Positions 6,001 through 55,231 of a DNA stretch of 64,000 nucleotides are shown here, in pieces. This DNA comes from Thiospirochaeta perfilievii (lineage in GTDB: Bacteria; Spirochaetota; Spirochaetia; DSM-2461). The notes under the pieces were generated by a model. It did not search any database. It worked only from the letters and a program-made list of their open reading frames with translations, and had not been told where the DNA came from. The position numbers were made by a program, and so were the translations under genes. The stretch spans positions 186,001 to 250,000 of the forward strand of contig NZ_CP035807.1 in the NCBI RefSeq assembly GCF_008329945.1, written 5' to 3'. Position 1 is the stretch's first letter. The number at the start of each line of letters is the position of its first letter.

Positions 6001-6108
6001 TTCTCTAAGGCCAGAATTACTAATACCAAGCATGCTTAATGTAGCTTCTTTTGTTCTAGAAAGACTTTGTAATATCAATTTTTTATAAAATGCCACTATT
6101 TTCTCCAT
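1..6108 (-). CDS. DruE-like DEAD/DEAH helicase with DUF1998-type C-terminus (partial, one frameshift)
   Basis: Large SF2 helicase, probably the nuclease/helicase-like effector of a Druantia defence locus. Visible in order: Walker [10 protein letters not shown] (about residue 125), DEAH in [10 protein letters not shown] (about 263), SAT motif, a cysteine-rich zinc region (about 470-520), then, in a second frame, motif [11 protein letters not shown] and a DUF1998-like end with the cysteine motif CENVCSHCL. The first frame ends at 3019 in nonsense residues; the second is open from about 3125 to base 1, so the protein continues beyond the window. Adding one A to the AAAA run at 3124-3127 (minus strand) joins the frames. 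The start overlaps the druH-like gene by 26 bp, so the two are probably translationally coupled. Helicase and DUF1998 identity is firm; the DruE name follows from architecture and neighbour. Confidence 0.85.
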
Positions 6109-9100: not shown

Positions 9101-9424
9101 TGCTTTAGCTCTATCATTTTGTTTTAAATTACATCTAATAACATTTTCAATAGTGCTCCATGACCAGCTTTTATCATAATCACGCCGATAATATTCAGAA
9201 ACAAAAAGGCAAAAAAGTGCAGCCCAACTTCTAAAGAAGTATTCTTCATTTTTACTTGGTAAATGTTCATTAAGGATTTGAGGTATCCTATTATATTCTT
9301 CTTTCGTTACTTGATACCGAAACAATAATTTTCCATCTGGTTTTTGTAGTTGCCTTTTTTCGAGAAACTGGTTTAACCATGTTTTTGGACTTGGACTTTC
9401 ATAAAGTATATTCATCTTTTTCAC
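6083..9424 (-). CDS. DruH-like protein (STY4851/YjiT-type), Druantia type III partner
   Basis: A 1,113-residue protein with no catalytic motif I can point to. The first 120 residues (ending in the tryptophan-rich stretch around SWSWSTIENVIRC) resemble the YjiT/STY4851 family, which is encoded next to a giant DUF1998 helicase in enterobacteria; that pair corresponds, as I understand it, to DruH and DruE of type III Druantia. The middle is beta-rich and low in charge patterning; the C-terminus is helical. It is the first gene of the two-gene operon and overlaps the helicase by 26 bp. The alternative is an unrelated large helicase partner; family recognition here is from memory of sequence pattern and position only. 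Confidence 0.65.
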   Translation of the reverse strand: MKKMNILYESPSPKTWLNQFLEKRQLQKPDGKLLFRYQVTKEEYNRIPQILNEHLPSKNEEYFFRSWAALFCLFVSEYYRRDYDKSWSWSTIENVIRCNLKQNDRAKAVEIGLNEYWKRPIRTRGLNGKDRDLLGSLFLEGGLPWTLVQNPHTGFGRIVNRGIKEFHKTLNGNTDITQIIDGYSHYLPNAHQDKDTLNLLAGIVDSLMMIVRSSKLKDHENIIEYLDRYSPDWRSSFPLPIDEENATKLVSEWLLDAKKEHREKLIAEQNLFESSHYQVGKLSLWNIESQIVFPKSYKFDIDFSLLSTLRFEIYLYEGSTPRECLGTTYCEKLELSVQFKFPKNIVTIRRKKIDEELSIKLMTNGVLIKSITIEDSILDTSGPLIFENINNPDDIKIKLLSNASYNSPDDKLVIWQPRGWNVESINAKRVGIGNKFSIWVGIENNAIVKLKDDILNIKLNCNNNPLKLSLAGNCSILDTIPKITYHGLPRLINDQDNVSSYNDLKVYIDGCENKFWDGSISGKFSYVIKDNNGSTLLRKFIGVLPKDFKMKIVPDFRNINAILEVWGINDDELFILGDNISSIEIDSEISKKFILRQLDSERTPLFEIKLKSINCNNPIYIKCSYPVLGASVFDENGVRIKSNNIALNELLGKYLYLNSTTDSIETFDLELELISKKHKFNPRINTSYKVSNETVKVSLFSLKSEFLQILSTTDDQDAYIKLLVHIKSKKILELNIRRYKGYVQLYNDNFEIIDLDNKYSLAKFKPIAIQLSDPKINDNILPEILSEDVATGYYSLRPIMSKEGPWLIIPADSDSPQFRPKLFLPENNYVLSSNAETLERAAKVYHPIDNPYVIDKVINSMANNYNHKSWNYIYYLKENFQYIHLNAFESWLSLSRNIDALVTFFYRIDCNLDFCNKLRDELSVVWESIPLNKWIDGYHNFISWQVRNGDFSEELIKRLGLNKIEVLKKVISGIQFIEDFIIHKINEPLKFSVCKSLEIMYQNLRRDHMEDRWPVGLNDELLFWANKNLDIVEINTSKTHFSNSVTYLPMFMARVTMGDAKLEDLGVTLNKLKFYIYKISDFDNSWYSSVYSMMLSVLVNSKYSINGENSGIL

Positions 9425-11023: not shown

Positions 11024-11063
11024 ATTGGTAAAAAAATAACCCTCCTATTCTATTTTTACCAAT
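11024..11063 (-). terminator. Terminator at the end of the mcrBC-endonuclease operon
   Basis: Perfect arms ATTGGTAAAAA and TTTTTACCAAT with an 18-base loop. The right arm overlaps the last codons of the endonuclease gene and A/T runs lie in the stem, so it can act in either direction. Confidence 0.6.
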
Positions 11064-12021
11064 ATCTAATTTTTAAATATTGTAATAGATCGTAGTAAGT
11101 TTTATCCTTAATTCCATTCATTAGTTTTTCTGGCGTAATAATAAAATATTTTGATTGGTCTTCTAAATGAAATCTCCATGTGGCCTCCATTCCCATACCA
11201 CTACATTTATATTTTTTTTCAAGTAAGTCTGAGTTCTCTGATGGAATAACATGTACGTGTAAAAAGTTTGTTGCTTTTAATGTTTCATTTTTACTATTAA
11301 TAATCATTTGTTCAGCCCAGAGAGTTTGTCGCATAAGTTGATAAAATGGTTCGAAATAATAGCAGAAATGATTTTCTGATCTTAATTGAGAAGAATTATT
11401 AATTAGTTGAGAATATCTGTTCTTTCTTGTTTCACCTTTGCTGCCCTTTGTTTCTTTTGTACAACCTTCAGTTGCTTTATTTTGATTATTATAAAACTCC
11501 GTATATTTCCATTCAATTGGAATAAGCCAATGTGAGCCGTCATTACGAACCCCAAAAATTAAAGCATCAATTGATGTACAATTACTTCCTCGATTTGGAA
11601 CACCTTCATTGAGATTATCGTTATCGCTAACTGCTTCAAATTGTATATATGCAGGTTTAAATTTGTCATTTACAACAGGTAAAACATCAGTAAAATCATC
11701 TGATATATTTTTTAAAATGGTGAGAACAGCTTCTTTGTCATTTCTAATTTGATATAAGTGATTAATACATGCAATTTGTGATGACAATGAATGTCCTGTA
11801 GGCTGTTTACCACCCCACCATGAAATTTTATTTTTTTTAAAGTATTCCACGGCATCAGACCTAATTGGTTCAAATAAATTTTTAATATTATCAATTAGAA
11901 CAAAATCCCTAAACTTTGTCATGAATTTTTTTCCACCTAAACTTCCATAAAAAACAGGATTTTTGCTTTGAATTAAGTCTATTGCTTTTTCCCTCTGTGA
12001 TTCTTGATAAATCGATGCCAT
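11056..12021 (-). CDS. PGN_0703-like PD-(D/E)XK restriction endonuclease
   Basis: A 321-residue nuclease-like protein. The fold signature is a conserved aspartate in CTSIDALIFGV (about residue 151) followed by E-x-K in PIEWKYTEFY (about 170), the metal-binding pair of PD-(D/E)XK enzymes; upstream conserved features include SWWGGKQPTGHSLSSQIACINHL. This matches the PGN_0703-like restriction endonuclease family. It follows mcrC by 67 bp on the same strand, so it is likely a third component or a cargo nuclease of the type IV system. The gap carries four copies of a six-base repeat close to its start. Confidence 0.8.
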   Translation of the reverse strand: MASIYQESQREKAIDLIQSKNPVFYGSLGGKKFMTKFRDFVLIDNIKNLFEPIRSDAVEYFKKNKISWWGGKQPTGHSLSSQIACINHLYQIRNDKEAVLTILKNISDDFTDVLPVVNDKFKPAYIQFEAVSDNDNLNEGVPNRGSNCTSIDALIFGVRNDGSHWLIPIEWKYTEFYNNQNKATEGCTKETKGSKGETRKNRYSQLINNSSQLRSENHFCYYFEPFYQLMRQTLWAEQMIINSKNETLKATNFLHVHVIPSENSDLLEKKYKCSGMGMEATWRFHLEDQSKYFIITPEKLMNGIKDKTYYDLLQYLKIRYW

Positions 12022-12034
12022 TTTTACCTTTCCA

Positions 12035-12058
12035 TTTTAATTTTAATTTTAATTTTAA
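12035..12058. repeat. (TTTTAA)4 tandem repeat before the endonuclease start
   Basis: Four perfect six-base units lie 14 bases upstream of the endonuclease start codon, just behind its ribosome-binding site (GGAAAGG). A change in copy number would move any promoter element relative to the start without touching the reading frame. Confidence 0.7.
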
Positions 12059-12088
12059 TTATTAATAATATTTATTACCTATAAAATT

Positions 12089-13336
12089 CTATTTATTGTT
12101 ATTATTTTTAATTGGTAGAGTTATTCCGTATTTATAAAATTGTACAAATTGCTTAATAGTTTTATTTTTGATTTTATCAACTTCTATTTCTTGATTCCCA
12201 TTGTCCATATCTGGGTATATAATTAGACAATCTAAATGTGGTATAGGTTGAGTAATATCAATATCCAACTGCTTTATTACTTCGTAATCCCTTGCATATC
12301 CACTTAATTGTCGAATATTATCTTTATCCCATTTATCATTACAATAAACCTCTTTGTATTTTGCATCGATAACTGTTTTTTGTGAAATATGAAGATAATC
12401 TAGCTCTGTACGTCCAGAACCTAAGGCTTTAGCCAAAATATCCTTGCCATAGGCTTTATCTAATTTAGTTAATACATACATTTCAAATAGTAGAGACATA
12501 TCTATATAGAACGGAGGGAACTTCTCTTCTTTGTTATCTTCAGAATTATGAATTGAATAGGAAAATCTTTTTAGTATCATCTCTGCGACTTTAAGTGTTT
12601 CATTATACTCTTTATAAAGAGAGTTTGTTGTTATTCTTTTTAAATCACTTAAAGTTACACTATCTGAAACTCCATAAAAGGCTGGATGTATATAGTTATA
12701 TAAATTTACTATTTCTGCATGACTATTATGATGATTTTTTATATAGCTAAAAACAAAGTTTAATGTCTTCTTTAATATACGATTTTCTGTACAATCTATA
12801 GAATAATCCTGATAACGGCAGATATTTCTATCCATTCTTTTTTTTAAAATATTAATCTTAATATTCTGGTTAATTAATAACTTTCCTTTAATTTTTGACT
12901 TAAGATTCTCTTCGATCCATATATAATCTCTTTTTAATCCCTTTTGTACTATTTTTTTTAATAACGTTAAAAAGTGAATAATTATTAGTGGGGTTAATTC
13001 AAAAGTGTTCGCAGGCAACGGTATAGGATCTTTTGTGAAGTCTATTGAATAGATATCTGAAACTGTACTTGTGGTTCTTGGATTTTTAAGGCATTCTAGG
13101 AACATTGTAAGATAATCAATGTTTTCAATTTTAGGCTCTACTATTAAAGCATTGACACCCTCTGTTAACCATTGTGTTCCTATAAAATAACCAACATCAT
13201 ATTTAGATGAAAGACCAAGAAGAGTAGGAATATCATTTTTATATGATAGTTCCAACCCTAAATTCTTTAGTTTATCAGTATCTGTATCACTAAAACCAGA
13301 GTGTTCCATAGTTCTGAAGACTGTAATACCATTCAT
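12089..13336 (-). CDS. mcrC: McrC-like nuclease subunit of McrBC
   Basis: A 415-residue McrC homologue: N-terminal DUF2357-like segment, and near the C-terminus the PD-(D/E)XK core TELDYLHISQKTVIDAKYKEVY, with the aspartate and D-A-K catalytic trio. With McrB it forms a type IV modification-dependent restriction enzyme that cuts methylated foreign DNA after GTP-driven translocation. Start overlaps the mcrB stop by one base (ATGA-type junction), typical of this operon. Confidence 0.9.
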   Translation of the reverse strand: MNGITVFRTMEHSGFSDTDTDKLKNLGLELSYKNDIPTLLGLSSKYDVGYFIGTQWLTEGVNALIVEPKIENIDYLTMFLECLKNPRTTSTVSDIYSIDFTKDPIPLPANTFELTPLIIIHFLTLLKKIVQKGLKRDYIWIEENLKSKIKGKLLINQNIKINILKKRMDRNICRYQDYSIDCTENRILKKTLNFVFSYIKNHHNSHAEIVNLYNYIHPAFYGVSDSVTLSDLKRITTNSLYKEYNETLKVAEMILKRFSYSIHNSEDNKEEKFPPFYIDMSLLFEMYVLTKLDKAYGKDILAKALGSGRTELDYLHISQKTVIDAKYKEVYCNDKWDKDNIRQLSGYARDYEVIKQLDIDITQPIPHLDCLIIYPDMDNGNQEIEVDKIKNKTIKQFVQFYKYGITLPIKNNNNK

Positions 13337-14928
13337 TATAGTATAATGTCCTCTATCTCTTTATAATCTCCATTTTCATTTGGAGTTAATATAAGGATAC
13401 CATCTTTTACATACTCTCTTAATAGCGGTTTTATTTCATACTTAAGTTTTAGTTCTAAATCTTCTTTAGTTTTAGCCATAAAATAACTATGACCAATCAT
13501 TAGATCATGTTTATCAAAGTCGGGAGAAATATTCTCCATTACTTCTTCTATTTCTTCAAATAATTTTATTGCAATATCACTAGGAGCATTATTATCTGCT
13601 AGTTGTGTATAATAATTTTCTATTGCAGATTTATGAGACTGTAGTGTTATAAAGGAAAATCGTCTTCTAATTGCATAGTCTATATGACCAACACTTCGGT
13701 CCGCAGTGTTCATTGTTCCAATTATGTATAGGTTTGAAGGTATACCAAATGGCTCATCTTCAGGTGAGTAAGGTAGTTTAACTCTTAATTCATTTTCTTC
13801 ACCGATTCTTTTATCACTCTCTAATAGGGTAATTAACTCACCTAAAACTTTTGATATATTACCTCTATTTATCTCATCGATTATTAATATATATGGTTTT
13901 GGAGCCTCTACAGTTTCAACTTGTATTATTTGTTTATCAATCAAGTGTTGTGCTAAAACTCTTGCATAGCTATAGTTTGTCTTTCTTGATTTAATTCCAT
14001 GTATATAACTAATTACTGTATTTACATTGAATCTATAACTTGAGTTAAACTCTTCCTGCTTCTCTAGTTTGAATGAGATATTTGTATTACCTTCTTTATA
14101 ATCAAGGACAAAACTTGTGTCAGCGGATTTTGCATATTCCTTGTCTTTATTTTTTAATACATATTCAAATATTTTTTCTTGTAAATCAAAATCACTTAGT
14201 GGTGTTGCAATTTTACTTTGTGCTTTATTGCACATCTCTTTAAATATACCTGGCTTAACATTATACGTTACATCACCTTCATCTGTTATCTCCGGTTTAA
14301 GACCTTCAACAAACTCTTCATAATCCATAGATTGATGAAATGTAGTAAAAGCAATTCTACCTTCTTCAACAGCCTTTTGGTAATCTGCCATTATTTCTTT
14401 ACGATTATCATATTTTTTACTTTCATTTATCAGATTCATTGCAATCTCAGCAGATATATATGTTTTACCAGTACCTGGAGCACCTTGTAATATTATTTGT
14501 TTTTTATGTTTTAATACTTTTTTTGCTTCTAATATATTTTTATTCATTAATAATTCCTTATGCCAATTTATAATAATTTTTGAAGTAGGTGCATCATAGT
14601 TTCCACACCTTTTTAATGTACCCCTTGGATCTGGTAATATCAAATTAGGATTATTATTCCAATCTAAAACTTTTACATTCCTCCGCAAATTAAACCATAT
14701 ATCGCTATTATCTTCTTCATAATATGAGTCACTTGTAACCTCAGTAAGTGCTATTAGTTTTCCACCTCTTTTTATTGCTACTATATCTCCAATCTTCATT
14801 GTCTCTTCAAAAAATTCTACTTCAGTTTTATCATCACCTAGACCAATGATTCCTAGTTCACTTAAAACTTCTTTCTCATTTACTGATCCTTGTTCATTTG
14901 GATGTATTTGCATATGCCAATAGTTCAT
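13336..14928 (-). CDS. mcrB: McrB-like GTPase with N-terminal EVE-type domain
   Basis: A 530-residue AAA+ protein. Residues 1-110 look like an EVE/PUA-like modified-base reader (HMQIHPNEQGSVNEKEVL, IGDIVAIKRGGKLIALTEV). The motor has Walker A GAPGTGKT (about 150), Walker B LIIDEINRGNISKVLGEL, the McrB sensor TMNTADRSVGHIDYAIRRRF and GHSYF near the end. It reads modified bases and drives McrC. A strong Shine-Dalgarno (AAAGGAG) precedes the start. Family assignment is secure; the recognised modification cannot be told from sequence. Confidence 0.92.
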   Translation of the reverse strand: MNYWHMQIHPNEQGSVNEKEVLSELGIIGLGDDKTEVEFFEETMKIGDIVAIKRGGKLIALTEVTSDSYYEEDNSDIWFNLRRNVKVLDWNNNPNLILPDPRGTLKRCGNYDAPTSKIIINWHKELLMNKNILEAKKVLKHKKQIILQGAPGTGKTYISAEIAMNLINESKKYDNRKEIMADYQKAVEEGRIAFTTFHQSMDYEEFVEGLKPEITDEGDVTYNVKPGIFKEMCNKAQSKIATPLSDFDLQEKIFEYVLKNKDKEYAKSADTSFVLDYKEGNTNISFKLEKQEEFNSSYRFNVNTVISYIHGIKSRKTNYSYARVLAQHLIDKQIIQVETVEAPKPYILIIDEINRGNISKVLGELITLLESDKRIGEENELRVKLPYSPEDEPFGIPSNLYIIGTMNTADRSVGHIDYAIRRRFSFITLQSHKSAIENYYTQLADNNAPSDIAIKLFEEIEEVMENISPDFDKHDLMIGHSYFMAKTKEDLELKLKYEIKPLLREYVKDGILILTPNENGDYKEIEDIIL

Positions 14929-20895: not shown

Positions 20896-23022
20896 TCATA
20901 AATTTAACTCATCTAAAGTTTTAAAATCATTAGGGTAATTAACTTTTAAATATGCAATTTTATATCCATATAAGATATTATTTAAGTTACGAAACTTAGA
21001 AACAACTATATTTGAATAACTTATTAGTAGGTTTAATATTTCTTTTGCTTTTATTATATCATAACCATTTCCCACAGCCTTATTAATTAGTGTATCAATA
21101 TTTTTATTATCATTTATATAATTGGTTCTAATAAACTCTGCTTCTTGTGAATTACAACCTAATAAGATAGTAAGTATATCAATTATTTGTTCTTTGAAAA
21201 TTAAAACACCGTGGGTTTTGTTCAATACACATTTTATATTTTGATGAATATATTTTATTTTCTCTGGATTATTTTTTCCTTCTAAATATTTTGTTGTTAT
21301 TTCTAATGGGGAAAAAGTAAAAGAGTCAATTGTAATTAGATCTTCAATGTTTTTTGGTTTATAAACTAATATATTACTTGCGCCTAGATTAAAGTCAAGA
21401 TTGTGTAAATCAGAACGTTCTGCATCACATAAAAACTTAAAAGTAGATTCATCATCAGTGGGTATTTTAGCAATATTAAAGTTAGGTTCATAAGTTTTAA
21501 TGGATTCCTCAATTTTTTTTAGCCTACTTAGTAATTTATATGGCATTAAAGATATATTCAGAACACCAAAATCCCAATTATTTTCCAATTTATATTGGCT
21601 TACAAGATGCCCACTATAAGGTTCTTTGTAAAATGGGATATAATTATTTATACTCTCTTTTGTAATTAATAAATTTGTAGAACTTACTTTTGTCTGCAAT
21701 GGTGCTCCTGAAACAATATTTATATCTGCCATATAAGAACTAGATTTTTTAATTTTATACACAGAGATACCTAAAGCTTTTAAAGCTCTTTTTAACAGTT
21801 TTTCCCCGTTCAATCTAGGGAAGAAAAATATAGTTCTAGCACAATTTGCTTCACCATATTTTTTAATTAAATAATCAACGATTTCTTCTTTTCTTTCATA
21901 ACATACATCGAGTGTAATAAATGGTATTTTACTTTTATCCAAGGAATAAAATAGATGAAGATTATATTTTATTGGATCTATATCTGATATAAATAACAAA
22001 TACGCCACTAATGAACCCTTTATTTTTCCAGAACCTATAAAGAAAAAAATATCTTTATCTTCAGCAAATATTTTTAAATCCCAATGAATAAGGAAGTATA
22101 TTGATAACTTTAAATCTGTAATCTGTTTAAGTTCTAGATTAATTCGTTCTACAACAGTCTTGGACTCTTCTATTTTTCTCTCTTTTAGCCCTTTAAAGCA
22201 CAAATAATGCAAATATTCTTCAGGACTGTTATATAATTTGGGTATAAAAAAATTAGGCATTTCAACGTCTTTTACTTCAATATCAAAATGACATCTTTTG
22301 GCTATTCTAACAGTATTTTCTATTGCTTCTGGAAAATGTTTAAATAAGTTTGTCATTGTTTTGGTGGGTTTTAAATAGTATTCACTAGTTATGAAATCTT
22401 TTGTATTTGTTATCTTTCTTAGTAGACTATGGGCGCTGGAATGATTTTTTTCTAAATAACAAGCATAATTGGTTACTACTATAGGAATATTATTTTTGAT
22501 TGATAAATTTAATAAGAATGCGTTTCTCTTTTCATCTTCTTCTAAGCCATGGTTCTGTAATTCTAAATAAAAATTATAATTTCCAAAAATATTGTGTAGT
22601 AGTTTAGCATGTAATTCTATATCTTCTTTTTTGGAATTAATAAAAGAAGATGTTGCTATTATCCCTTTCTTGTAAAGCTTTAAATCATTTAAAAAGATAA
22701 ATGGATTATCATAGTCACCTTTTTTATAGCCTAAAGAAGATATCTTCATTAAATTTTTATACCCTTCAATATCTTCTGCAAATAGTAATAAGTTATGATT
22801 GATAACTTTATTAAAAACGACTTTTATTTCTAAACCTATAACTGGTTTTATATTGTTTTCTTTACATTTGGTATAAAACTCAATTATTCCGAACATGTTA
22901 CCATAGTCAGTTAAGCCTAAATAGTTCATCCCATTTTCTTTTGCTTTAATTATTAGATCTTTGATTTTTATGGTACTTCTTCCTAGAGAGTAAGTGTTGA
23001 TTCCCGAGCTATATGTAAACAA
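20896..23022 (-). pseudogene. DnaE-like protein without polymerase active site, interrupted by a transposon
   Basis: Homologue of the PHP, palm and fingers regions of DNA polymerase III alpha, about 709 residues originally against about 1,160 in DnaE. Visible: GMNYLGLTDYGNMFGIIEFY (PHP), GSGKIKGSLVAYLLFISDID (for GRGSAAGSLVAY), PFITLDVCY (for PDIDIDF, two of three catalytic acids lost), ILNKTHGVLIFKEQ-like fingers and a C-terminal stop soon after AYLKVNYPNDF. It therefore cannot be a normal polymerase. The open frame from TTG at 23022 uses 28 bases of transposon; the original codons 1-11 lie at 26058-26088. First gene of the co-oriented cluster. Confidence 0.85.
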
Positions 23023-23743: not shown

Positions 23744-25093
23744 ATGACAGAAGAAGAATTTAATTTAAAACGTGTAAAAATCTGTGAGTTTAGATACTCA
23801 GTCGTAGCTGAGCTGGGGAACCCCTATCTTGGGAGAGGTCAGCTAACACGATTAATAAAAGAAAAATCAAATAGAAATTATGCCATCCCTTATTCTAGCA
23901 GAAATTCACTCACCGAGGGCTGTATTAGACGCTGGTTTGCTCTTTACAGAAAATATGGAAAAGATGGACTTAATCCCAATATAAGAATAGATTCCGGGAA
24001 AAGCAGAACTATTAACGATAGAGAACAAACAGCCATAATAAGTATGCTGGAATCTAATCCTAAGTTGACGGCTACTGCTGCTGTCAAAAAACTTATTGAT
24101 CAGGGAGTAATTAAAAATGATATCCCAAGCTCTACTTTATCTAGATTTATCCAATCAAATAGTTTGAGTTCTAAGAATAGGCAGTTAAATAGTGATAAAG
24201 AGAAGAATTTAAAATTCAATTTTTTCTATCCTATGGAATGTATTCAGTCCGATGTAATGTATGGTCCAAATATTCTAGATGATAAAGATGGAAAAGTAAA
24301 AAGAGCTATGCTTATGACGTTTTTAGATGATGCAACAAGAAGAATCATTTATGGTCGTTTCTCATTCTCAGAGAAATCAATTCTTTTTGAAGATGGAATA
24401 AAGCATATCCTACAAAGTCAGGGGATGATTGGGAAGCTGTATACAGATAACGGTTCAAGTTTTGTATCCAATCAGACAAAAAGAATTCTGGATATTCTTG
24501 GAATAACTCTACATCATAGCAAACCTGGGAGACCCCAAGGAAAAGGTAAACAAGAAAGATTTTACAGAACTGTAAGAGATCAGTTTCTTCGTCCACTGGA
24601 TATAGATAGCGTAAAAGATATAAATGATCTGAATGCCAAATTTAATACATGGCTAGAGTGTGAATATCACCGCTCTCCACATAGAGGTTTAATAGATTTT
24701 ATTACACCTATTGATGCCTGGATTGCTAAATCACAGCATATAAAACAGTTACCAGCAACCATAAATTTGGATAAGATATTCCTGCATTTTCTAACCAGAA
24801 AAGTATACAAAGATTCAACTTTTACCTTAGGGGGTACTCTTTTTGAAACACCCTCAATATTGATAGGGAAAAAAATAAATATATATTTTGATCCACACCC
24901 TCCAGTTAGTCGTGTTTTAGTTACATATGCTGGGAAAGAGTATGGATATGCTAGAATTGTTGATACATATGCAAATAGTATGGTTAAAAGGGGTTATTCT
25001 AGAAATGGAGATTTACAATCAGATGATATTAGTAACGAGTTTCATATAAATTTGACTGCTACTGATTTGGGAGATATTTATTATGACAAATAG
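23744..25093 (+). CDS. DDE transposase (rve/Mu-like)
   Basis: A 449-residue transposase: N-terminal helix-turn-helix regions (residues 20-150), an integrase core with the catalytic triad visible as QSDVMYG (D), LYTDNGSSFV (D) and GKGKQERFYRTVRDQF (E), and a Mu-type C-terminal beta domain. Preceded by AAAGGAGAAA. It overlaps the ATPase gene by 11 bases. The combination with an AAA partner and five-base target duplication places it in the TnsB/TniA-like group. Confidence 0.92.
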   Translation: MTEEEFNLKRVKICEFRYSVVAELGNPYLGRGQLTRLIKEKSNRNYAIPYSSRNSLTEGCIRRWFALYRKYGKDGLNPNIRIDSGKSRTINDREQTAIISMLESNPKLTATAAVKKLIDQGVIKNDIPSSTLSRFIQSNSLSSKNRQLNSDKEKNLKFNFFYPMECIQSDVMYGPNILDDKDGKVKRAMLMTFLDDATRRIIYGRFSFSEKSILFEDGIKHILQSQGMIGKLYTDNGSSFVSNQTKRILDILGITLHHSKPGRPQGKGKQERFYRTVRDQFLRPLDIDSVKDINDLNAKFNTWLECEYHRSPHRGLIDFITPIDAWIAKSQHIKQLPATINLDKIFLHFLTRKVYKDSTFTLGGTLFETPSILIGKKINIYFDPHPPVSRVLVTYAGKEYGYARIVDTYANSMVKRGYSRNGDLQSDDISNEFHINLTATDLGDIYYDK

Positions 25094-25886
25094 GGAAATA
25101 TTAGCTCATTTTAATCTATCCTCGGAGCCTTTTACTAGAGAAATAAAAACATCAGCACTTAAAAAACTTCCAGGAGTGAATAACGCTCTAGATCAGTTAC
25201 AAATATTATTTGATACAAAGGGATTTGGAATACTCACAGGTCAATCTGGATCTGGGAAAACCTGTATATTGAGAATGGCTGTAGATGCTCTTAATCCAGG
25301 TATGTTTAAGCCATATTATATATGTCATACTTCTGTGGGAATACAGGAGTTTTATACTCATTTGTGTACCACATTTGGTTTACAACCTACGGGAAGAAGA
25401 GCTGCGATGTTCAAAAGTATTCATGAACATATTTTGAATATGCACAGAACTACTAATATTCATCCGGTTCTTATAATAGATGAGGCGGATAAATTAGGGA
25501 CAGATATTTTACAGGAACTACGATTAATTGCAAATTTTAATTATGATTCTATTAATGCAATTACGATACTGCTTTGTGGTCAGGAACCACTTATTCAAAA
25601 ACTAGGTCTCTCATCCTTAGAATCCCTTGCTAACTCCATTTCTGTAACGGTGAGGATAAAATCTTTAAATAAAGAAGAAACATTTTCATATATAGAACAG
25701 CGAATTAATGATGTTTCAACTGGAGGAAGTCTGTTTTCAAAGGGATCTATGAATTTGATACATGATGCTTCAAATGGAATTATGAGAGTAATTAATAATA
25801 TGGCTCGAAATTCTTTATTAAAGGCACATTTAACCAATTCGCCAATTGTAGAAAAAGAGCATGTTCAGGCTGTATTAAGCAGATAA
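25083..25886 (+). CDS. ExeA/TniB-like AAA ATPase of the transposon
   Basis: A 267-residue ATPase with Walker A GQSGSGKT (about residue 59), Walker B VLIIDEADKLG (about 127) and a sensor region ITILLCGQEPLIQKL. Homologues (ExeA, TniB, TnsC) choose target DNA and activate the transposase in an ATP-dependent way. Translation is coupled to the transposase by overlap. Confidence 0.9.
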   Translation: MTNREILAHFNLSSEPFTREIKTSALKKLPGVNNALDQLQILFDTKGFGILTGQSGSGKTCILRMAVDALNPGMFKPYYICHTSVGIQEFYTHLCTTFGLQPTGRRAAMFKSIHEHILNMHRTTNIHPVLIIDEADKLGTDILQELRLIANFNYDSINAITILLCGQEPLIQKLGLSSLESLANSISVTVRIKSLNKEETFSYIEQRINDVSTGGSLFSKGSMNLIHDASNGIMRVINNMARNSLLKAHLTNSPIVEKEHVQAVLSR

Positions 25887-29596: not shown

Positions 29597-29709
29597 AAGA
29601 TATTATAGCTTAATTTATTTTATATCTACAACAAAAAAATTATGTGCCGACACAACCTTTCGCATCAAGTGATTATATTTTAAATATATTAGAAAAGAAG
29701 GATGAAATT

Positions 29710-30129
29710 ATGGAAAACGAATTTGACAAAGAAAAACAGCAAGACGCCGTAAATGACTTTAAAGAACGAATGAATGAGTTTAAAGAAGAGGATGTTAAAT
29801 CTACTGCACAGGATGGAGAACTGAAATTCAAAAGACTTTGGGAATCAATTCCTAAACCTCTGCTTGATTTATGGGATGATATTAAAGAGCTAATTTCCCT
29901 ATTAAAAGACTTTGCAAGTAAGAGGTATACAGATATTCCCCTAAAATCAATTATTGCAATAGGAGCAGCTGTCGCATATTTTGTATCACCTTTTGATATT
30001 ATCCCTGATGCTATCCCTATTATTGGTTATTTAGATGATGCTTTAGTTCTTAAATTTGCAATGGATTTAATAGTTGACGATCTTATCCAGTACAAAGCAT
30101 GGAAAGCAGAAAAAAGGGAAGAAGATTAA
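29710..30129 (+). CDS. YkvA/DUF1232 membrane protein, copy 1
   Basis: About 139 residues from ATG at 29710 (preceded by GAAGGA). Charged N-terminal half, then the DUF1232 motif YFVSPFDIIPDAIPIIGYLD and a hydrophobic helix. The family is membrane-associated and of unknown activity. Divergent from the helicase and followed at once by a paralogue. Confidence 0.8.
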   Translation: MENEFDKEKQQDAVNDFKERMNEFKEEDVKSTAQDGELKFKRLWESIPKPLLDLWDDIKELISLLKDFASKRYTDIPLKSIIAIGAAVAYFVSPFDIIPDAIPIIGYLDDALVLKFAMDLIVDDLIQYKAWKAEKREED

Positions 30130-30178: not shown

Positions 30179-30568
30179 ATGAATAAAAGTCCTGTGGATG
30201 ATTTTAATGATAGAATGAAAGATTATAAAGTAGAAGATGTAGAATCAACAGTAAAAAGTAGTGAGGAGAAATTTAAAAATCTTAATGATTTTATCCCAAA
30301 ACCTCTACTTGATCTTTGGGATGATATTAAAGCCCTGATATCCTTATTAAATGATTATTCCCATAAAAGATACACGGATATATCTATTAAGGTGATTATT
30401 GCAATTGGAGCTGGTATAACCTACTTTGTATCACCAATAGATGTAATTCCAGATACTCTACCTGTTATTGGTTACTTGGACGATGCAATAATTATCAAAC
30501 TTGTTTTGGATCTTATATCAGTGGATTTTAATAAATACAAATTATGGAGAAGGAATAAAGATGTCTAA
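30179..30568 (+). CDS. YkvA/DUF1232 membrane protein, copy 2
   Basis: 129 residues with the same order as copy 1: DDFNDRMKDYKVEDVESTVK, PKPLLDLWDDIKALISLL, then YFVSPIDVIPDTLPVIGYLD. A tandem duplication in which the charged N-terminal part has diverged. Preceded by TTTGGAG. Confidence 0.8.
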   Translation: MNKSPVDDFNDRMKDYKVEDVESTVKSSEEKFKNLNDFIPKPLLDLWDDIKALISLLNDYSHKRYTDISIKVIIAIGAGITYFVSPIDVIPDTLPVIGYLDDAIIIKLVLDLISVDFNKYKLWRRNKDV

Positions 30569-31926: not shown

Positions 31927-32552
31927 TTACTTATATAAAAAAATTATACTAATACCAATTGTATTAATTAAAACGAGTATAAAACTAATAATAGATATGA
32001 TATTGTTTTTTGTTATGAATCTATAAATTATTTTATCTTTTGTATCAATACGATCCATTAGCTCATTAATATAAACTCTAAATTTATCGAGTTCTTCTTC
32101 AGACTTGGTATTATATGACTTAATGTCATTAACAATTTCTGATATTAAATTATTATTTTCATCTGATGAAGTTATAAACTTATCGACTTCTGTAATTAAG
32201 CTTTGAATTTTATTAACATTATAATTGTAACTAATTAAAGTTTTATTAAGGGTTTCAGATATTTTTTTATTATTGATATCAATATCAGATGCTAACTTCG
32301 AAACATCATCAATCGAGGTTTTTAGAACTTTATTACTTTCCGAAATGATTTGTTGAGTATTTTCTTTAAAATCTCCATCAAAAAAGATGAAATTGTATCA
32401 TCTAACCCCTCTATCTTTTGTTTAAGAGGTTTAATAAGACTAGCTTCAATATCTTTAAGTCCAATACTTTCAATTAATATATCATGAAACATATTTTTAA
32501 CATTCTGATTTAAACCTTCAAGAACATTATCATCTTGTTCATTTTCTTTCAT
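31927..32552 (-). CDS. Coiled-coil protein with C-terminal membrane anchor (frameshifted)
   Basis: About 208 residues once one base is added to the six-base run at 32380-32385; otherwise it ends after 76 residues. Long acidic coiled coil (NKKISETLNKTLISYNYNVN, SEIVNDIKSYNTKSEEELDK) and a C-terminal hydrophobic helix NIISIISFILVLINTIGISI. It overlaps the upstream GTPase by 14 bp, so the three are likely one operon. It could tether the GTPases to the inner membrane. Confidence 0.65.
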
Positions 32553-34302
32553 TTTTATTCTCCATATTAACCAATCTCATGTTTAGTAAATCCTTCAGAG
32601 CGTTACTCATTAAATAACAATGTGTTAGATTTTTTAATCTTCTATTAACTGATATATTTGGTTTATTAATAATTTGTATTTTTTTATTCCAAACTTTTAT
32701 ATACTCTTCTTTTAGAATATGTGGATAATCTGTAAGTTGTTCAATTTCAATTTCAAGAATACGATAATTATTAAATATCACTTCATAATCATCTTTAATT
32801 TTAGTTGCTCTATTTACTAAATAATGTATGTTATGTAATTTCTTTGAATGATCAAATTTTTTATCTATATTTATTGGCACGGAATTAATATATTCATCAA
32901 AGTCTTTGCTAAGTAATTTTTGTAGACTTTGTGCGTCTCTATTTAGAATTGTAAATTTACTTTCATTATTAATTAATTTAATCTTATTATTAATAATATT
33001 ATTATAAATAGAATCGTATTTGGAATTGTGTTTATTCAGAAAATTCTTTATATCTAAATCTAAAGAGAATAATTTTATCTCATTATGTGATTCATACTCT
33101 TGCAATGATTTTCTTAACTTATTTGTAAGTTCCGTATAATCAAAAAAACTAATAATTATTTCATCTATAGTTTCATTTATAATTAATTTATTTATTTTTT
33201 TATCTTTATGGTTAAGATTTTTGAAATTATTCCAGTTAATGTTTGATAAGTATTTGATTCCTTTATCATCAGCTATTTCACTGACTTTTTGTTTATATAA
33301 TTTAATATGATTTCTAATTTTTTCATTATCATTATTAAAGTTGTCTATTTTATTTTTTTGATTTTTTATTATTTCATTTAAATTATCTATTCTCGATTTG
33401 AGTTTATTTAATTCAAATAAGTACTTGTCTCTCTGTCTTTTTTTAGATATCGGAGTACTAAAGATCCGCATAACTTTGGACATTGATGGTTCAATATTGT
33501 CCATCCAACTGACTATCTTATCTACCGATCGAATTCTTTCATCATCAATATTTTCATAGTCTACTTCTTTAAAAGAACAGGAGATGACAGGAGGTATGAT
33601 ATCTAATTTTAATTCTTTTCTAATTGTAGATGTCCAGTTTTCACCTGTATCATTAGCTAATTCTGTTGCAAATGTTACCAGAAGTAAACTATTTTGAGGC
33701 GAAACTTCTATCCTTTCTTTCATTTTATATTCGAAAGAACCTTTATATCCACCAAAATCACTAATTGCATTACCTGGAGCGACAAATACTACAATATCAG
33801 CAGTATTTACGAATTTTTCAGCTGCCCGTTGTGCAATAATAGCTTCAACTTCATCACGATTAGAACTGTAACCAGGTATATCAATGAATACAAGATCCTT
33901 CCTTCTCCACTTACCAGGTAATTCTATTTCTATATAACTATCATTTGATTCAACAAAATGTTTTTGTGAATCTCTTAAGTGTGCTATTTGACTCGTTAGA
34001 CTTTCTAATTCAACTGAATTAATTTCAACAATTTTTCCATCTCTAGTCTTTGGAATATATCTAATTGGAACAGGAGTTGCACTATTACACTCTTTTTCAT
34101 TACCTCTTAATGCTTTTATAACAGAATCAATTGTATAAAAATCTTCATCTAAGATTAAATGAACAAGTGCAGTAGTTTTTCCAGACTGAGCTTTACCTAT
34201 AGTTGCTATAACTAATTGATTGTCTATGTTCGTTGTAGTTATATTATCAAATGTCTTAGCTGCATTTAAAGCCCAACTCCAATGGTCAAAAGATTTCTTC
34301 AT
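32539..34302 (-). CDS. Dynamin-like GTPase B
   Basis: 587 residues. G1 is IGKAQSGKTT (about residue 37), G3 is VFIDIPGYSS (about 140), and the switch region contains CNSATPVPIRY. Beyond residue 290 lies a long stalk-like coiled coil (NKLKSRIDNLNEIIKNQKNK). No transmembrane helix is evident. Bacterial dynamin-like proteins often come in pairs and remodel membranes; LeoABC/Eleos members act in phage defence. Confidence 0.75.
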   Translation of the reverse strand: MKKSFDHWSWALNAAKTFDNITTTNIDNQLVIATIGKAQSGKTTALVHLILDEDFYTIDSVIKALRGNEKECNSATPVPIRYIPKTRDGKIVEINSVELESLTSQIAHLRDSQKHFVESNDSYIEIELPGKWRRKDLVFIDIPGYSSNRDEVEAIIAQRAAEKFVNTADIVVFVAPGNAISDFGGYKGSFEYKMKERIEVSPQNSLLLVTFATELANDTGENWTSTIRKELKLDIIPPVISCSFKEVDYENIDDERIRSVDKIVSWMDNIEPSMSKVMRIFSTPISKKRQRDKYLFELNKLKSRIDNLNEIIKNQKNKIDNFNNDNEKIRNHIKLYKQKVSEIADDKGIKYLSNINWNNFKNLNHKDKKINKLIINETIDEIIISFFDYTELTNKLRKSLQEYESHNEIKLFSLDLDIKNFLNKHNSKYDSIYNNIINNKIKLINNESKFTILNRDAQSLQKLLSKDFDEYINSVPINIDKKFDHSKKLHNIHYLVNRATKIKDDYEVIFNNYRILEIEIEQLTDYPHILKEEYIKVWNKKIQIINKPNISVNRRLKNLTHCYLMSNALKDLLNMRLVNMENKNERK

Positions 34303-34314
34303 TTATTATATTAA

Positions 34315-36291
34315 CTATAAACTGTAAGACAAAAATTGCTTATGTGCTTCTTTTAACTCAGCTGATGTCTCTAATAATGTAATTATACTTGAGTTCTTAG
34401 CTGTTACACCGAACCTATTTTTTAGATCAATTTCTAAACAATACCATACTTTTTCACCTAAATCTTCCAAATCTTTAGTAAACTGTATAATGGAATTTTC
34501 TGCTATGTACTCTAAGTATGATTTAAAATGAGAATGTAGACTATTGTCTAGTTCTCTTTGTCCTACACGATACGATGAGATTAAAGAATGTGAAGCCATA
34601 AGTAAAACCGCACCTCCTATTACTCCAGCTAAGACACTAGCAGAAATACCAGCGAAACCAGCACCTGCTAATTCAGCTGTAGTAGCAGCAGCACCACCAG
34701 CACCAAATAATATTTTAGTCACATTTCCAGCCCCTTCACCTATGGGGGTTAAATTAAATAATGCTTCTCCTAAGGAGACTGTTTCTTTTTGTTCTTTTGA
34801 TTTTTTATCTTTCGATTCTATTTCTACTTTAAAGTTATTTAAAATTGTTTTGGTATTTTTTAGTTTATCTGAAATGGATTCCGTCATTTCATTTACAGAT
34901 TTACTTTTACCAGCAGGGATTTTTTTATCAAAGTCATCAGATAAAGAATTTATAAATATCCCAGCTATAAAAGTTTGTAATACACTCGCACTATCAAAAT
35001 TATTATCAGTTAATTCAGAATTCTCTAATTGATTGACAAGTACTTGTAAGGTTTCTTCATAAATAATATTCAAAAAATCAGCATCTAAAAAAGATTTTTT
35101 TAATTTTATAGCTAAATCACGAAGTTTTTTTCCTTCAGGTGTGTTTTTTGAAAAAAATAAATCGATTTGATTTTTTGCTCCACCGGTTATATTTTTAGAA
35201 ATTTCATCATCTAGAGTTTCAATTAAATCATCTCTCAATTTGTATATAGACTTTGAAAATGTTTTAATCATATGTTTCGATAAATATGAGAATTGTTGAT
35301 TATATTGCTTCTCTAAATGACCAATAACTTCTAACTGCGTATGAGAAGTATTTTCAATTTTTATTTCTGATATAGCTTTATCTATTTTTCTAATCACAGT
35401 TCGGGTATCTTTAGCAATCTTTTTCATTCCAGGAAACATTATTGCAGATTTAGTCATCTTCTCTACAGCCCAAACAAATAAGTCATCATGAGAATGATCT
35501 CCTTTATTACTTTCTAAATCATTAGAAATCATAAAAATCTCTGAACCGTAATCTTCTAATTTAGCATAAAAGTCAGATTTTTTATCATCAGATAAAACAT
35601 CAACAAAAGTGCCTACAAATGCTGTTTTAGAATTAGGGACTTTATATTCTGAACGCCAGTTATCAATAGTATTAAGCCCTATTTGCGCTGCTCTCGAATG
35701 TGTTGTAGCTATGATAACAACATCACTATTAGCAATTGCTACCTCTATAGAACTATTGAAACTAGCACTTTCTTGTATTCCAGGCAATACAACAACTGGA
35801 GACATCTGTTCTAACTTCTTTGAACCATAAATATTCCATATAGCAAAAAGATCATATTTATTATTATTGATTACTCGTTCCCGAGCTTCATCATAACTTA
35901 AAGATTCTTCAATAATATGCCCTTTATTTGATGAAAATATTTTAACTAGTTCCTCACTTTTAGAGGCTACATTCTTTAATAATATAGGAATATGTTCGCA
36001 ACTACCCCTACCAGAGACTAATTCAGCTTCTTTTGGAATCTCAAACATGATATTAGCTAAAGTACTTTTACCAACCCCTTGTAACCCTGCAATTGTACAA
36101 ACAGAATCCTCAGTAAACATTGAAGCAAACTGATATGATAAATGTATTTGTTGTAAATCTTCACGTATATCATCTGCATCTTCAATAGGGAGATCGGATG
36201 AAGCTAAGGCTTTGTGTAGTTTTTGTATACCTTTTCCTAAAGGTCTAATATAGTTAAATGCTTGCTCTCTAGATATTATTTGTTTTTCCAT
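34315..36291 (-). CDS. Dynamin-like GTPase A with hydrophobic membrane segment
   Basis: 658 residues. G1 is GLQGVGKST (about 70), G3 appears as VLPGIQESAS (no aspartate, so altered), and AFVGTFVDVL may be the G4 region. Residues about 565-600 form an Ala/Gly-rich hydrophobic hairpin (AGFAGISASVLAGVIGGAVL) like the membrane paddle of bacterial dynamins. It heads a three-gene operon with GTPase B (12-bp gap) and a membrane-anchored coiled coil. An Eleos-like antiphage role is an analogy. Confidence 0.75.
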   Translation of the reverse strand: MEKQIISREQAFNYIRPLGKGIQKLHKALASSDLPIEDADDIREDLQQIHLSYQFASMFTEDSVCTIAGLQGVGKSTLANIMFEIPKEAELVSGRGSCEHIPILLKNVASKSEELVKIFSSNKGHIIEESLSYDEARERVINNNKYDLFAIWNIYGSKKLEQMSPVVVLPGIQESASFNSSIEVAIANSDVVIIATTHSRAAQIGLNTIDNWRSEYKVPNSKTAFVGTFVDVLSDDKKSDFYAKLEDYGSEIFMISNDLESNKGDHSHDDLFVWAVEKMTKSAIMFPGMKKIAKDTRTVIRKIDKAISEIKIENTSHTQLEVIGHLEKQYNQQFSYLSKHMIKTFSKSIYKLRDDLIETLDDEISKNITGGAKNQIDLFFSKNTPEGKKLRDLAIKLKKSFLDADFLNIIYEETLQVLVNQLENSELTDNNFDSASVLQTFIAGIFINSLSDDFDKKIPAGKSKSVNEMTESISDKLKNTKTILNNFKVEIESKDKKSKEQKETVSLGEALFNLTPIGEGAGNVTKILFGAGGAAATTAELAGAGFAGISASVLAGVIGGAVLLMASHSLISSYRVGQRELDNSLHSHFKSYLEYIAENSIIQFTKDLEDLGEKVWYCLEIDLKNRFGVTAKNSSIITLLETSAELKEAHKQFLSYSL

Positions 36292-42557: not shown

Positions 42558-44534
42558 TTACATGACTAATGCAAGAATTATCTCGATATAAGTTGTATCT
42601 GTACCGACAGGGAATGATATTGTTTTACTTTCCCAATTGATATGCATGTTTGCATCAATAGCATCTTCCATGATTATTAATGATTGATTCTCTACAAAAT
42701 CTTCCCATTTTCTATCAGATAAATTATACCACTTTTTAGAATCATTTTTCATAGGGATAATTGTTTTTGAAGCATCTGGATTAAATGTACAATTTTTTTC
42801 ATCAATTAAATGTGCAAGTTCTTTTCTGGAATCATTATCTCCATGGTTTAAGAAAACCTGTATCTCTTCTTTTCTTGGTTCTTTTGGATTATTATATATA
42901 AAATCCAATAAAGCATCCTTATCAGCATGACCTGAATAATATGCACTCATATTTATAATCTTAGATTTAACATCAGATAATCTACAATCCATATTATTGA
43001 ACCTTGTATTATGCTTCATATCATTTTCATAAGTATCTAGGTTTGATAAATAATATCCATTAGTGTCTTTTGCCTGATATCCTGTAATAAGAACTGTTGA
43101 ATCTTCTCTAGTCAAATTTTTATTTAGAATATCAACAATAGCGCCATCATTACACATGCCTGAAGAACCTAAAACAATGGTCTTATGACAAGGGTTATTA
43201 GTGTATGAAATTCCACCATTTGTTACACGTATAATATGGTCTTTAATCTCAAGGTGTTTCTTTTTAACTTTATTAGTTTTTTTCTTATAAGATTTATTAC
43301 TTTCGAGAACTTCACCTACCGTAAAAATATTTTCAATAAGGTCATCATAACTATCAAAACCCTCAAAATCTAAAGTTGAAAATATTGAATCATTTCCATA
43401 TAAATATTTCTTAGAATTATTTTTGAATTTATATTCTAATAGGCCTTTTTTATATATAGGAATCAGTTTCTCAATTAAAGGAGATGTAATAAAAACTTGT
43501 AATTTTATAGGTATGACAATTTCTGATAATAATTCTATAATTATTTGAGAATCGTCATAATCTCTTACATAGCTATAATACTCACCATTTATTAATTTAA
43601 ATGACTGATCTTTCTCTTCAAGTAAATCGATTAAATATTTAGGGAAATTATCATTATTGATAAATGTGCGTACTTCATCTTCTGATACTTTAAAATAATA
43701 TTCCTTAAAGTTTAAGAGATAAAATAAATCAAATAAAATTTCTTGGGCTCTATGCAATGAAAAACTAGGAATAATTAAATTTTTACCTACATTGAATGAT
43801 TCTTCAATTATTGAATTTAATTTCTATAATCGTTGTTTATAATTAAAACATTCCCTTTTTCTAGCGCCATAGGTTGATTCTAAAACAATGAAGTCATTTC
43901 CTCTTCCATTATGCGGATATTGATTATCTTTTATTAATAACGATTGCTCATTTTGTAATGTTGATGCTCCAATATCCCCTGAAAATACAATTGTCTTTTT
44001 TTCAAAATCTGCTTCTTGCCAAATAAACCCAACTGAGACAGCACCTAAGATATGAGAAGATCTGAGGAAATAAAAGAAAAAATCTTTACCTATAGAAATA
44101 TGTTGACCCCAACTAAACTTAGAATCTAAATCGACACAGTTAAATTTGATCTGATCTACATCAGAAATTTTGTATAGTTCACCATTAGAGATATTAGCAC
44201 TATCTAGTAGTATTTCTCTAGCACAATCAGCCGTCATAGAAGTACAATATACTTCCCCTGTATAACCATATTTATAAAGAAGAGGTATTGCTCCACAATG
44301 GTCTAAATGTGCATGTGTTAAAATTACCTTGGAAATATTTTTTGCATCAAATGGTAAGTTTTTCAGATTTTGAGCACCTTCTCCCTGATACATTCCACAA
44401 TCAACTAAAACTGTTTGTTTATTTTCTCCATTTATATATTCTAACATTGAACATGAACCTGTAACTGTCTCAACACCTCCTATAAATCTAACTTTCATTT
44501 TCCGAATTTGTAAATCGTTGTTTTCTAATAGCAT
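42558..44534 (-). pseudogene. Beta-CASP metallo-beta-lactamase nuclease split by an amber codon
   Basis: N-terminal half (44534-43827): FIGGVETVTGSCSMLEY, metal motif LTHAHLDHCGAIPLL and GDIG; the C-terminal half: LGSSGMCNDGAIVDIL (beta-CASP), VLITGYQAKDTNGYY, YYSGHADKDALLDFI and FLNHGDNDSRKEL. The two halves are in one frame, separated only by TAG at 43824-43826, at a position (YGARKRE..KLNSIIEESF) where the family normally has glutamate or another sense codon. It would be a CPSF73-like RNA or DNA processing enzyme of about 658 residues. One substitution likely caused the stop. Confidence 0.85.
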
Positions 44535-54332: not shown

Positions 54333-55231
54333 CTACCGTCTAAATCCATATTCTGGATTAATTGTATTATTCTTTAGTCCCATGGATTTTATTGGAGTAT
54401 TGGGAAAGTCTTTTAACAAAGCGTTTAGCTTTTTAATAAATTCATCATACTCATCTAATGGTTTTAAAAGTTCTCCAATAATATCTAAGATTATAATTAT
54501 TTTTTTCTTTGCTTAGTATCATATGTTTTTTGCATATTATTAGTAATTGAAGGCTTTATTGTTAAAGAAGAGTTCCAAAGTCTACCATGATGGGCACAAA
54601 TATTTCGTACTGTAGTAATAGATTGAATCCAGGACTCTAATAAAAAAGGTTTTATTTCAAAGTAATTTGCAATGTCTTTTTTTATATCCTTATTTTCTAA
54701 AGATTTATATATTTTAGACCAACTCCCAAAAGAAATTATTTCAATTAACATCCACGATGCAGGTAATGTAGGTTCGGAATATTTGCGTAAATAACTTTTT
54801 ATAAATATCTCATTACTTCTATTTATCTCCCTTTCAACATCTGAAAGAAATTTATCATGTTTGAATTGTGCATTAACATGTTTCTTAGATAATGGCCAAT
54901 GAGAGTCTTTACTATTTAAAGACATGTGTAAGTTGAGTTGAGTCCTGAATGCTACTTCAATATGTGTTATAGCATCAAATAATATTGTTCTTAGTTTATC
55001 ATCAAAGTTATATAGATCAACTACATTTTCAAAACTTGTTTCAGGTTTATATCTATGAGTTCTTTTTCTATTTTCAAATTTTTCAAAATGAAGAGCATAA
55101 CCTACAAATCGATAATAGCTTACTTTGTTTAGAAAGTTTATAGCAAAAGATTTATCATGTATGATCATACCTCTAGATTCTAATATATTCAGTTGATCTT
55201 GTATGTTCGTTGGAGGGGAAGTATATTTAAT
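54333..55231 (-). CDS. AbiD/AbiF-like abortive infection protein (frameshifted, ATT start)
   Basis: About 299 residues if one base is added to the A7/T7 run at 54500-54506; otherwise it stops at 54497. The N-terminus upstream of the first ATG (55168) is conserved: IKYTSPPTNIQDQLNILESR matches the Abi_2 opening, and an AGGAGGG ribosome site lies five bases before ATT at 55231. Core: FLNKVSYYRFVGYALHFEKF, DLYNFDDKLRTILFDAITHI, RNICAHHGRLWN (HEPN-like RxxxxH). Abi_2 proteins trigger phage-induced growth arrest, probably as RNases. Confidence 0.8.

Follow-up and report, generated by a model that had tools for sequence, protein, structure and literature searches.

A mobile three-gene dynamin-like operon from Thiospirochaeta perfilievii with relatives in defence-rich regions of distant bacteria

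The three genes studied here lie in a tight operon on the minus strand (36291-31927) of a 64,000-nucleotide stretch of Thiospirochaeta perfilievii DNA (NZ_CP035807.1, positions 186,001 to 250,000), referred to as the window. The 16S sequence, judged on a portion of it, looks spirochaetal. Two of the three genes encode dynamin-like GTPases, and the third encodes a coiled-coil-like protein that ends in a hydrophobic segment. The trio recurs, with its gene order kept, in bacteria that are widely separated, and anti-virus genes often lie beside it; for this reason it is probably a defence system, one that would act at the membrane and that is so far unrecorded. The reading that we favor, by a modest balance of probability, is that of a three-component, mobile, dynamin-based membrane system belonging to the anti-phage repertoire; here, the defence role is taken from genomic context, while the mechanism is one that we infer.

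Gene 1 (36291-34315) encodes a protein of 658 amino acids with the P-loop GLQGVGKST and with VLPG at the G3 position, and gene 2 (34302-32539) encodes a GTPase of 587 amino acids with the P-loop GKAQSGKTT and the G3 motif DIPG. Gene 3 (32552-31927) has a frame that is broken near 32385. The initial annotation of this region had given exactly these outer coordinates and had described two distinct dynamin-like GTPases, one with an altered DxxG motif, as we also observe (LPG in gene 1 and DIPG in gene 2). It had further described the operon as overlapping, which is true of genes 2 and 3, as the start of gene 3 sits inside the end of gene 2 with an overlap of 14 nucleotides, but not of genes 1 and 2, which are separated by a 12-nucleotide spacer.

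Conservation of the trio across distant bacteria

Direct searches with the window sequences returned few leads. Apart from its own copy, gene 1 found no relative in 26 genomes of the order or among plasmids, phages and viral contigs; gene 2 found none in plasmids at an E value of 1e-5, in viral contigs, or, its own copy aside, in a sample of 392 genomes from the phylum, in each of which up to three candidates were scored. The GTPase part of gene 2 had no relative in a first scan of the genome collection, the C-terminal frame of gene 3 matched nothing in plasmids, and sequence searches of the PDB yielded chance matches only. At a lax limit, the GTPase part of gene 2 matched three plasmid records, the best being a Gluconobacter dynamin (E = 0.3); a Burkholderia match from the lax plasmid search (E = 4) was set aside. 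The Gluconobacter plasmid locus contains, arranged as in the window, a P-loop protein of 701 amino acids (with LPGYE), a broken gene of the dynamin family, an insertion sequence element and a frame of 168 amino acids with a hydrophobic tail, and a search based on it led to the trio on plasmids of Klebsiella, Enterobacter and Pseudomonas luteola.

Gene 1 is present in 11 of 72,556 plasmid records, Gluconobacter included, and 5 of 5,426 Escherichia coli genomes have a match that spans 80% or more of the query, whereas in 13 further genomes the match spans 30%, 7% or 1% of it. The trio is also found in one contig of the viral collection; a contig from the human gut, entered as a phage, carries it with a gene 2 that is 96% identical to that of a Faecalibacterium locus. 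The genome collection yielded 26 trio loci, from Bacillota, from beta- and gammaproteobacteria (according to record titles) and from one member of the Myxococcales. A gene 1 match followed by a gene 2 match, always in that order, was seen in all 26; of these, L072 and L083 have a gene 1 truncated by the edge, L064 has a split gene 1 and L081 has a short gene 2. A Sphingomonas plasmid frame (L050, 6000-9752), in which an unrelated N-terminal part is joined to part of gene 2, is probably a recombination remnant and was set aside.

Occurrence of the trio is sporadic. With a gene 2 profile that included the window protein, and with no more than three candidates per genome, only the window's copy scored strongly in the 392 genomes of the phylum; in 13 other genomes, matches with E values between 1e-5 and 1e-3 were confined to short stretches that by their position are P-loop or coiled coil, and these were not counted as members. 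Likewise, the 26 genomes of the order contained no strong match besides the window copy, and short gene 1 P-loop matches in 16 others were not counted. No title or abstract describing the trio was found in a literature search whose scope excluded preprints and most subscription journals, and a search on six accessions found no paper.

The assignment of the window operon to this family rests on profiles built from 28 gene 1 proteins and 29 gene 2 proteins with the window left out. These were run, at a fixed search size of 100,000, against 77 test proteins, namely, the open frames of the window of at least 80 amino acids together with two LeoBC proteins and one partial LeoA protein. Each profile matched a single protein, window gene 1 for the gene 1 profile (E = 6.6e-11 for the whole protein and 3.7e-7 for the best domain) and window gene 2 for the gene 2 profile (E = 1e-12 and 2.6e-7, respectively). 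Once the two frames of gene 3 are joined, the window displays the architecture of the family, in which a gene 1 with xLPG is followed by a gene 2 with D[LI]PG and a coiled-coil-like gene 3 with a hydrophobic tail. Moreover, across 22 loci that include the window, the three genes show correlated distances (r = 0.99, 0.87 and 0.90), as would be expected of joint inheritance, and none of 2,000 permutations reached any of these values.

The initial annotation had also treated the coiled-coil/membrane protein and the two GTPases as one unit, and the recurrence of gene order and motifs, in the 26 loci as well as in the plasmids, E. coli and the human-gut contig, bears this out and exceeds what chance would give. 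It had proposed looking for the coiled-coil gene in other genomes, and a counterpart is present in the same place in all 24 loci in which gene 3 could be assessed, L084 included; the contig ends in L060, and L081 has a short gene 2 with the end of the contig close behind it. The most hydrophobic stretch is C-terminal in 24 of the 24 counterparts. A strict single-segment test was passed by 21 of them and by all seven further gene 3 proteins tested (the window's and two near-duplicates among them); of the 96 control proteins and of the 157 flanking ones, just one each passed. We call gene 3 coiled-coil-like on account of its sequence composition and of weak matches to coiled-coil models. Matches of gene 3 relatives to the PADLOC ZorA model (best E = 1.1e-4) were attributed to coiled-coil similarity.

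In the window, the first frame of gene 3 (32552-32322) has 76 codons, of which the first 55 are assigned to gene 3, and the second (about 32385 to 31927) has 152 codons, its C-terminal hydrophobic segment ending at the stop. The two frames meet at a run of T, a break that the initial annotation did not mention. Since gene 3 is interrupted, the window copy may be inactive or may hold a sequencing error. The position of the break on a slippery-type run of T would suit a programmed -1 frameshift yielding two products, an explanation that concerns the window copy and not the function of the operon. We regard it as very improbable, as the 100 nucleotides downstream fold no better than shuffled sequences (z = +0.97), gene 3 is a single open frame in 23 of 24 loci and is cut by a deletion in the remaining one (L083), and a homopolymer error or mutation is the simpler account. 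Elsewhere in the window, a gene that by eye resembles the metallo-beta-lactamase fold (42558-44534) is interrupted by an in-frame stop codon, which together with the gene 3 break suggests regional decay or sequencing errors.

Motifs, predicted folds and known dynamin systems

The G1 P-loop is intact in both window genes, in the 28 gene 1 relatives and in the 29 gene 2 relatives. At G3, all 30 gene 2 rows, window included, have D[LI]PG, so that DxxG is present throughout, whereas all 29 gene 1 rows have xLPG, the Asp being replaced by Leu in the 28 relatives and by Val in the window. For these counts, gene 1 fragments (L072 and L083), a gene 2 fragment (L081) and near-duplicates (L048 and L051) were dropped, and other near-duplicates (L052, L059/L060 and several enteric copies) were kept. 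Given the missing G3 Asp, gene 1 probably binds GTP without efficient hydrolysis and is thus probably a poor or dead GTP hydrolase. By hydropathy analysis, all 23 full gene 1 proteins have a hydrophobic segment past the GTPase domain (beginning near residue 546 in the window), and none of the 24 full gene 2 proteins does; gene 2 has a long helical C-terminal half without a membrane segment. The two proteins match each other with a probability of 93% in hhalign and, hence, look like ancient paralogues.

Fold predictions were made for window gene 2 (21 sequences; predicted local distance difference test [pLDDT] score of 65.9 and predicted template modeling [pTM] score of 0.43) and, for gene 1, for the Klebsiella relative L073 (22 sequences; pLDDT of 70.0 and pTM of 0.54), to which window gene 1 is tied through the sequence profile. 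In Foldseek, the best match of the gene 2 model was the Campylobacter dynamin pair (5owv_C; E = 1.8e-6), with Drp1, MxA, dynamin and LeoA also among the best, and all seven matches at an E value of 0.001 or below belong to the dynamin superfamily. A comparison by VIA with MxA (4p4s) gave a Z score of 14.8 over 224 aligned residues, with a root mean square deviation (rmsd) of 4.3. The gene 1 model matched BDLP (2j68; E = 7.9e-11), IniA, the Campylobacter pair and mitofusin/Fzo1, and its comparison with Fzo1 (9kff) gave a Z score of 19.3 over 227 aligned residues, with an rmsd of 4.0. The models place the proteins in the dynamin superfamily, with a GTPase domain and, after it, a helical part of dynamin-type fold, and it is the GTPase domain that is the best-supported part of the models. 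By sequence, window gene 2 has a weak match to Pfam Dynamin_N (E = 9.7e-5), below the family cut-off.

A sub-threshold Pfam match to DO-GTPase2, seen with window gene 2 (E = 1.1e-4) and with Klebsiella gene 1 (E = 2.5e-5), raises the alternative that these proteins form a signaling switch of the DO-GTPase type, in which doubled TRAFAC GTPases act with GAP1, and not a membrane-remodeling dynamin. The available text of PMC7159879 describes such conflict systems as having paired GTPases and a constant third component, as does the trio. The match of window gene 2 reaches 22.5 bits, with a cut-off of 27, however, and the best fold matches are to the dynamin superfamily. The third component also differs in kind, gene 3 being coiled-coil-like with a hydrophobic tail, whereas GAP1 is a three-domain globular protein (PMC7159879, same text). 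The name GAP1 did not turn up in general domain scans, although no search was aimed at it. Taken together, we consider a DO-GTPase switch extremely unlikely.

Eleos is the name under which the Leo dynamin pair has been assigned its defence role. The initial annotation had likened the operon to Eleos/LeoABC, with which it shares two adjacent dynamin-like genes, and the Leo models belong to the PADLOC defence library. Conceivably, the trio represents a highly diverged form of Eleos (LeoA/LeoBC) in which one more gene is present. In both, a large dynamin-like gene precedes a second one of about 587 amino acids; the LeoBC model matches window gene 1 (28 bits, E = 2.4e-7, best stretch 428-627) and Klebsiella gene 1 (E = 5.5e-6), the LeoA model weakly matches P. 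luteola gene 2 (E = 3.5e-4) and Gluconobacter gene 1 (E = 7.5e-4), and LeoA (4aur) is among the fold matches of both the window gene 2 and the L073 gene 1 models. In addition, the trio has a third gene with a hydrophobic tail, and the Leo loci compared end inside LeoA, so that a third gene is possible there too, which raises our estimate for this alternative very slightly. Nevertheless, the matches are weak and partial. The two LeoBC values just given, for window gene 1 and Klebsiella gene 1, are the best that the trio obtains in PADLOC-DB 2023 for the window and for its relatives, respectively; real LeoBC proteins score about 300 bits, relatives match the Leo models with E values of 5.5e-6 to 5e-3, window gene 2 has no PADLOC match up to an E value of 0.1, and the window genes do not match the LeoA and LeoBC models over most of their length. 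The trio profiles, in turn, gave no match at an E value below 10 to the two LeoBC proteins and the partial LeoA protein, and hhalign gave 2.1% and 2.9% against single Leo sequences, which are weak templates, compared with the 93% between genes 1 and 2. Finally, the LeoBC proteins of L014 and L015 retain DTPG, while gene 1 of the trio lacks the G3 Asp. Kinship beyond the dynamin superfamily is thus not upheld, the remaining links being partial, and we judge a divergent Eleos system to be rather unlikely; our best reading is that the trio stands apart from Eleos at the level of sequence.

Other dynamin systems share single features with the trio. Cj-DLP1 and Cj-DLP2 of Campylobacter jejuni are, like genes 1 and 2, a heterotypic dynamin pair encoded in one operon. 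In the portion of PMC6104087 at hand, they are described as a two-component system in which both proteins are active GTPases, and they are not presented there as defence; the trio, in contrast, has three components and a G3-altered gene 1. DynA of Bacillus subtilis is a dynamin-like protein with an effect on phage, slowing phage release by delaying lysis (PMC8844932, in part), but it consists of two dynamins fused in a single chain (PMC6104087, in part), whereas the genes of the trio are separate. The available portions of PMC4159319, PMC6104087 and PMC8844932 make no mention of a tail-anchored third component for LeoABC, Cj-DLP1/Cj-DLP2 or DynA.

Genomic surroundings

The initial annotation had placed the operon among systems of defence islands, a setting that the surroundings of the relatives support. 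We compared 157 of the 160 flanking proteins of at least 130 amino acids, from 25 of the 26 loci, with the PADLOC models at E values of up to 1e-20, leaving out two edge proteins of L059 and the very long sole entry of L072; one stretch each from 13 of the 14 host genomes (one contig being too short) served as a control of 96 proteins. The flanks matched 55 families (77 proteins) and 99 families (80 proteins), compared with 5 for the control (96 proteins), although it counts against our interpretation that these are not gene counts, because the models are redundant and many can match one protein, and that the flank tables are pooled and not given per locus. The five control families are PDC-S08, three RtcR models and mad3. 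Among the flank matches listed (25 families per table) are a CBASS cyclase and effector, DrmD, ZacB, ThsB1, viperin, SngA/SngC, LmuA, JukA, bSEFIR, BrxHI and type I restriction-modification proteins, and the systems represented there include CBASS, Thoeris, viperin, Shango, Lamassu, Juk, type I restriction-modification and Zac.

In E. coli, where the surroundings were inspected for four of the five full-length copies, ydeT is the site of three chromosomal copies, one of them truncated. Their neighbors are, copy by copy, HamA (Hachiman) with a helicase and AbiTii; HNH and restriction genes; and a gene for a pPIWI-associated nuclease. Defence neighbors of this kind and the sporadic occurrence of the trio argue against a grouping with housekeeping dynamins. 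In enteric copies, two small genes (141 and 129 amino acids) lie upstream of gene 1, the second with a start that by eye resembles a signal peptide; they are seen in L054 (13621-14581), in the tables of L046, L051, L053 and L055-L057, and by sequence in L078 and L080.

A gene with Pfam WYL, WCX and HTH domains follows gene 3 of the window at a distance of 283 nucleotides on the same strand (31643-30759), as had been reported from the initial annotation, and is a possible regulator. Relatives of this gene are found in L077, where one precedes gene 1 by 298 bp (E = 4.9e-23), and in L069 (E = 3e-8). Further on, two DUF1232 genes are encoded on the plus strand (29644-30129 and 30179-30568). The first encodes a small protein that may be an accessory, a relative of which lies 63 nucleotides upstream of gene 1 in L061, a Lachnospiraceae locus (2887-3306; E = 2.9e-27).

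The window has a defence context of its own, all of it on the minus strand: Druantia III-like DruH3 and DruE3 genes (3019-9424), with DruH3 covering nearly the whole model and the DruE3 frame only about the first half; PD-(D/E)XK nuclease, McrC and McrB-like genes (11056-14928); and an AbiD/Abi_2 gene (54497-55168). We also noted a transposon-like pair, an rve-type transposase beside an AAA_22 ATPase (23744-25886), and a gene of 708 amino acids resembling the DNA polymerase III alpha subunit, with PHP, NTPase and finger domains (20896-23022).

Proposed function of the trio

The proposal made here starts from what is observed: a conserved trio with a fixed gene order, conserved motifs and hydrophobic segments, dynamin-type folds and defence-rich neighborhoods. 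Gene 1 would be a membrane-inserting dynamin-like protein that, with its catalytic G3 Asp replaced, may serve as a scaffold or sensor; gene 2 would be its soluble, catalytically competent partner; and gene 3 would be a coiled-coil receptor, anchored by its tail, through which the GTPases are held at the inner membrane or recruited to it. A membrane disturbance caused by phage could then trigger the two GTPases to assemble with each other at the inner membrane, and the ensuing membrane remodeling might either seal the membrane and delay lysis or stop the infected cell. In eukaryotes, organelle fission relies on Drp1 and on the tail-anchored coiled-coil receptor Mff. Genes 2 and 3 as proposed would resemble this arrangement of a soluble dynamin and its receptor, a likeness that would be architectural only, the eukaryotic machinery serving the fission of organelles.

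An alternative is that the trio is cargo of mobile elements with a role in membrane maintenance, vesicles or conjugation and is merely located in defence islands. In this regard, Gluconobacter gene 1 retrieved 11 plasmid records, 6 of which are typed as conjugative, the available part of PMC4159319 links the paired dynamins of LeoABC to vesicle release, and DynA acts in membrane surveillance against antibiotics (PMC8844932, in part). Furthermore, two of the E. coli copies, in strain S43 and on plasmid pR2-1, lie beside sugar-use genes, which speaks for this alternative and likewise against a defence role. The many matches to defence models in the flanks, compared with the control, and the sporadic occurrence of the trio point the other way, and we hold the cargo explanation to be unlikely.

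Several further points weigh against the anti-phage membrane system that we favor. The confidence of the models is modest (pLDDT of 66 and 70), and even the top rows have low whole-chain TM-scores (0.22 to 0.29 when normalized by the query), so that the domain arrangement of the whole chains is at most tentative; the gene 1 fold, moreover, was obtained with the Klebsiella relative and not with the window protein. Full-length identity between the window and the family is about 16% for genes 1 and 2 and 13% for gene 3. A BLAST comparison of window gene 3 with its counterparts found nothing significant, and its assignment therefore relies on position and architecture. The window assembly has a broken gene 3, and broken genes occur in other copies as well: gene 3 in L083, gene 2 in the Gluconobacter plasmid and gene 1 in E. 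coli TUM9803, with gene 1 split in L064. Lastly, the dynamins of island I55, which may or may not belong to the trio family, were inactive against the phages tried, according to the available text of PMC12595487.

With these points weighed, a three-component anti-phage membrane system is still the reading toward which we lean. It is possible, though we put this forward as doubtful, that the trio is an immune machine akin to the eukaryotic fission apparatus, in which a catalytic dynamin and its tail-anchored coiled-coil receptor are steered by a hydrolysis-dead, membrane-inserting dynamin and which serves as mobile anti-phage defence across distant bacteria. E. coli copies annotated as three complete genes exist, and relatives of the window operon are hence testable in laboratory strains. 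Intact relatives are also present, for instance, in Pseudomonas lactis and Serratia oryzae. If the proposal is true, the trio would add to bacterial immunity a dynamin defence system that has a membrane receptor dedicated to it as well as a conserved pseudo-GTPase partner, and it would provide a tractable handle on the recruitment and regulation of bacterial dynamins and on phage arrest.

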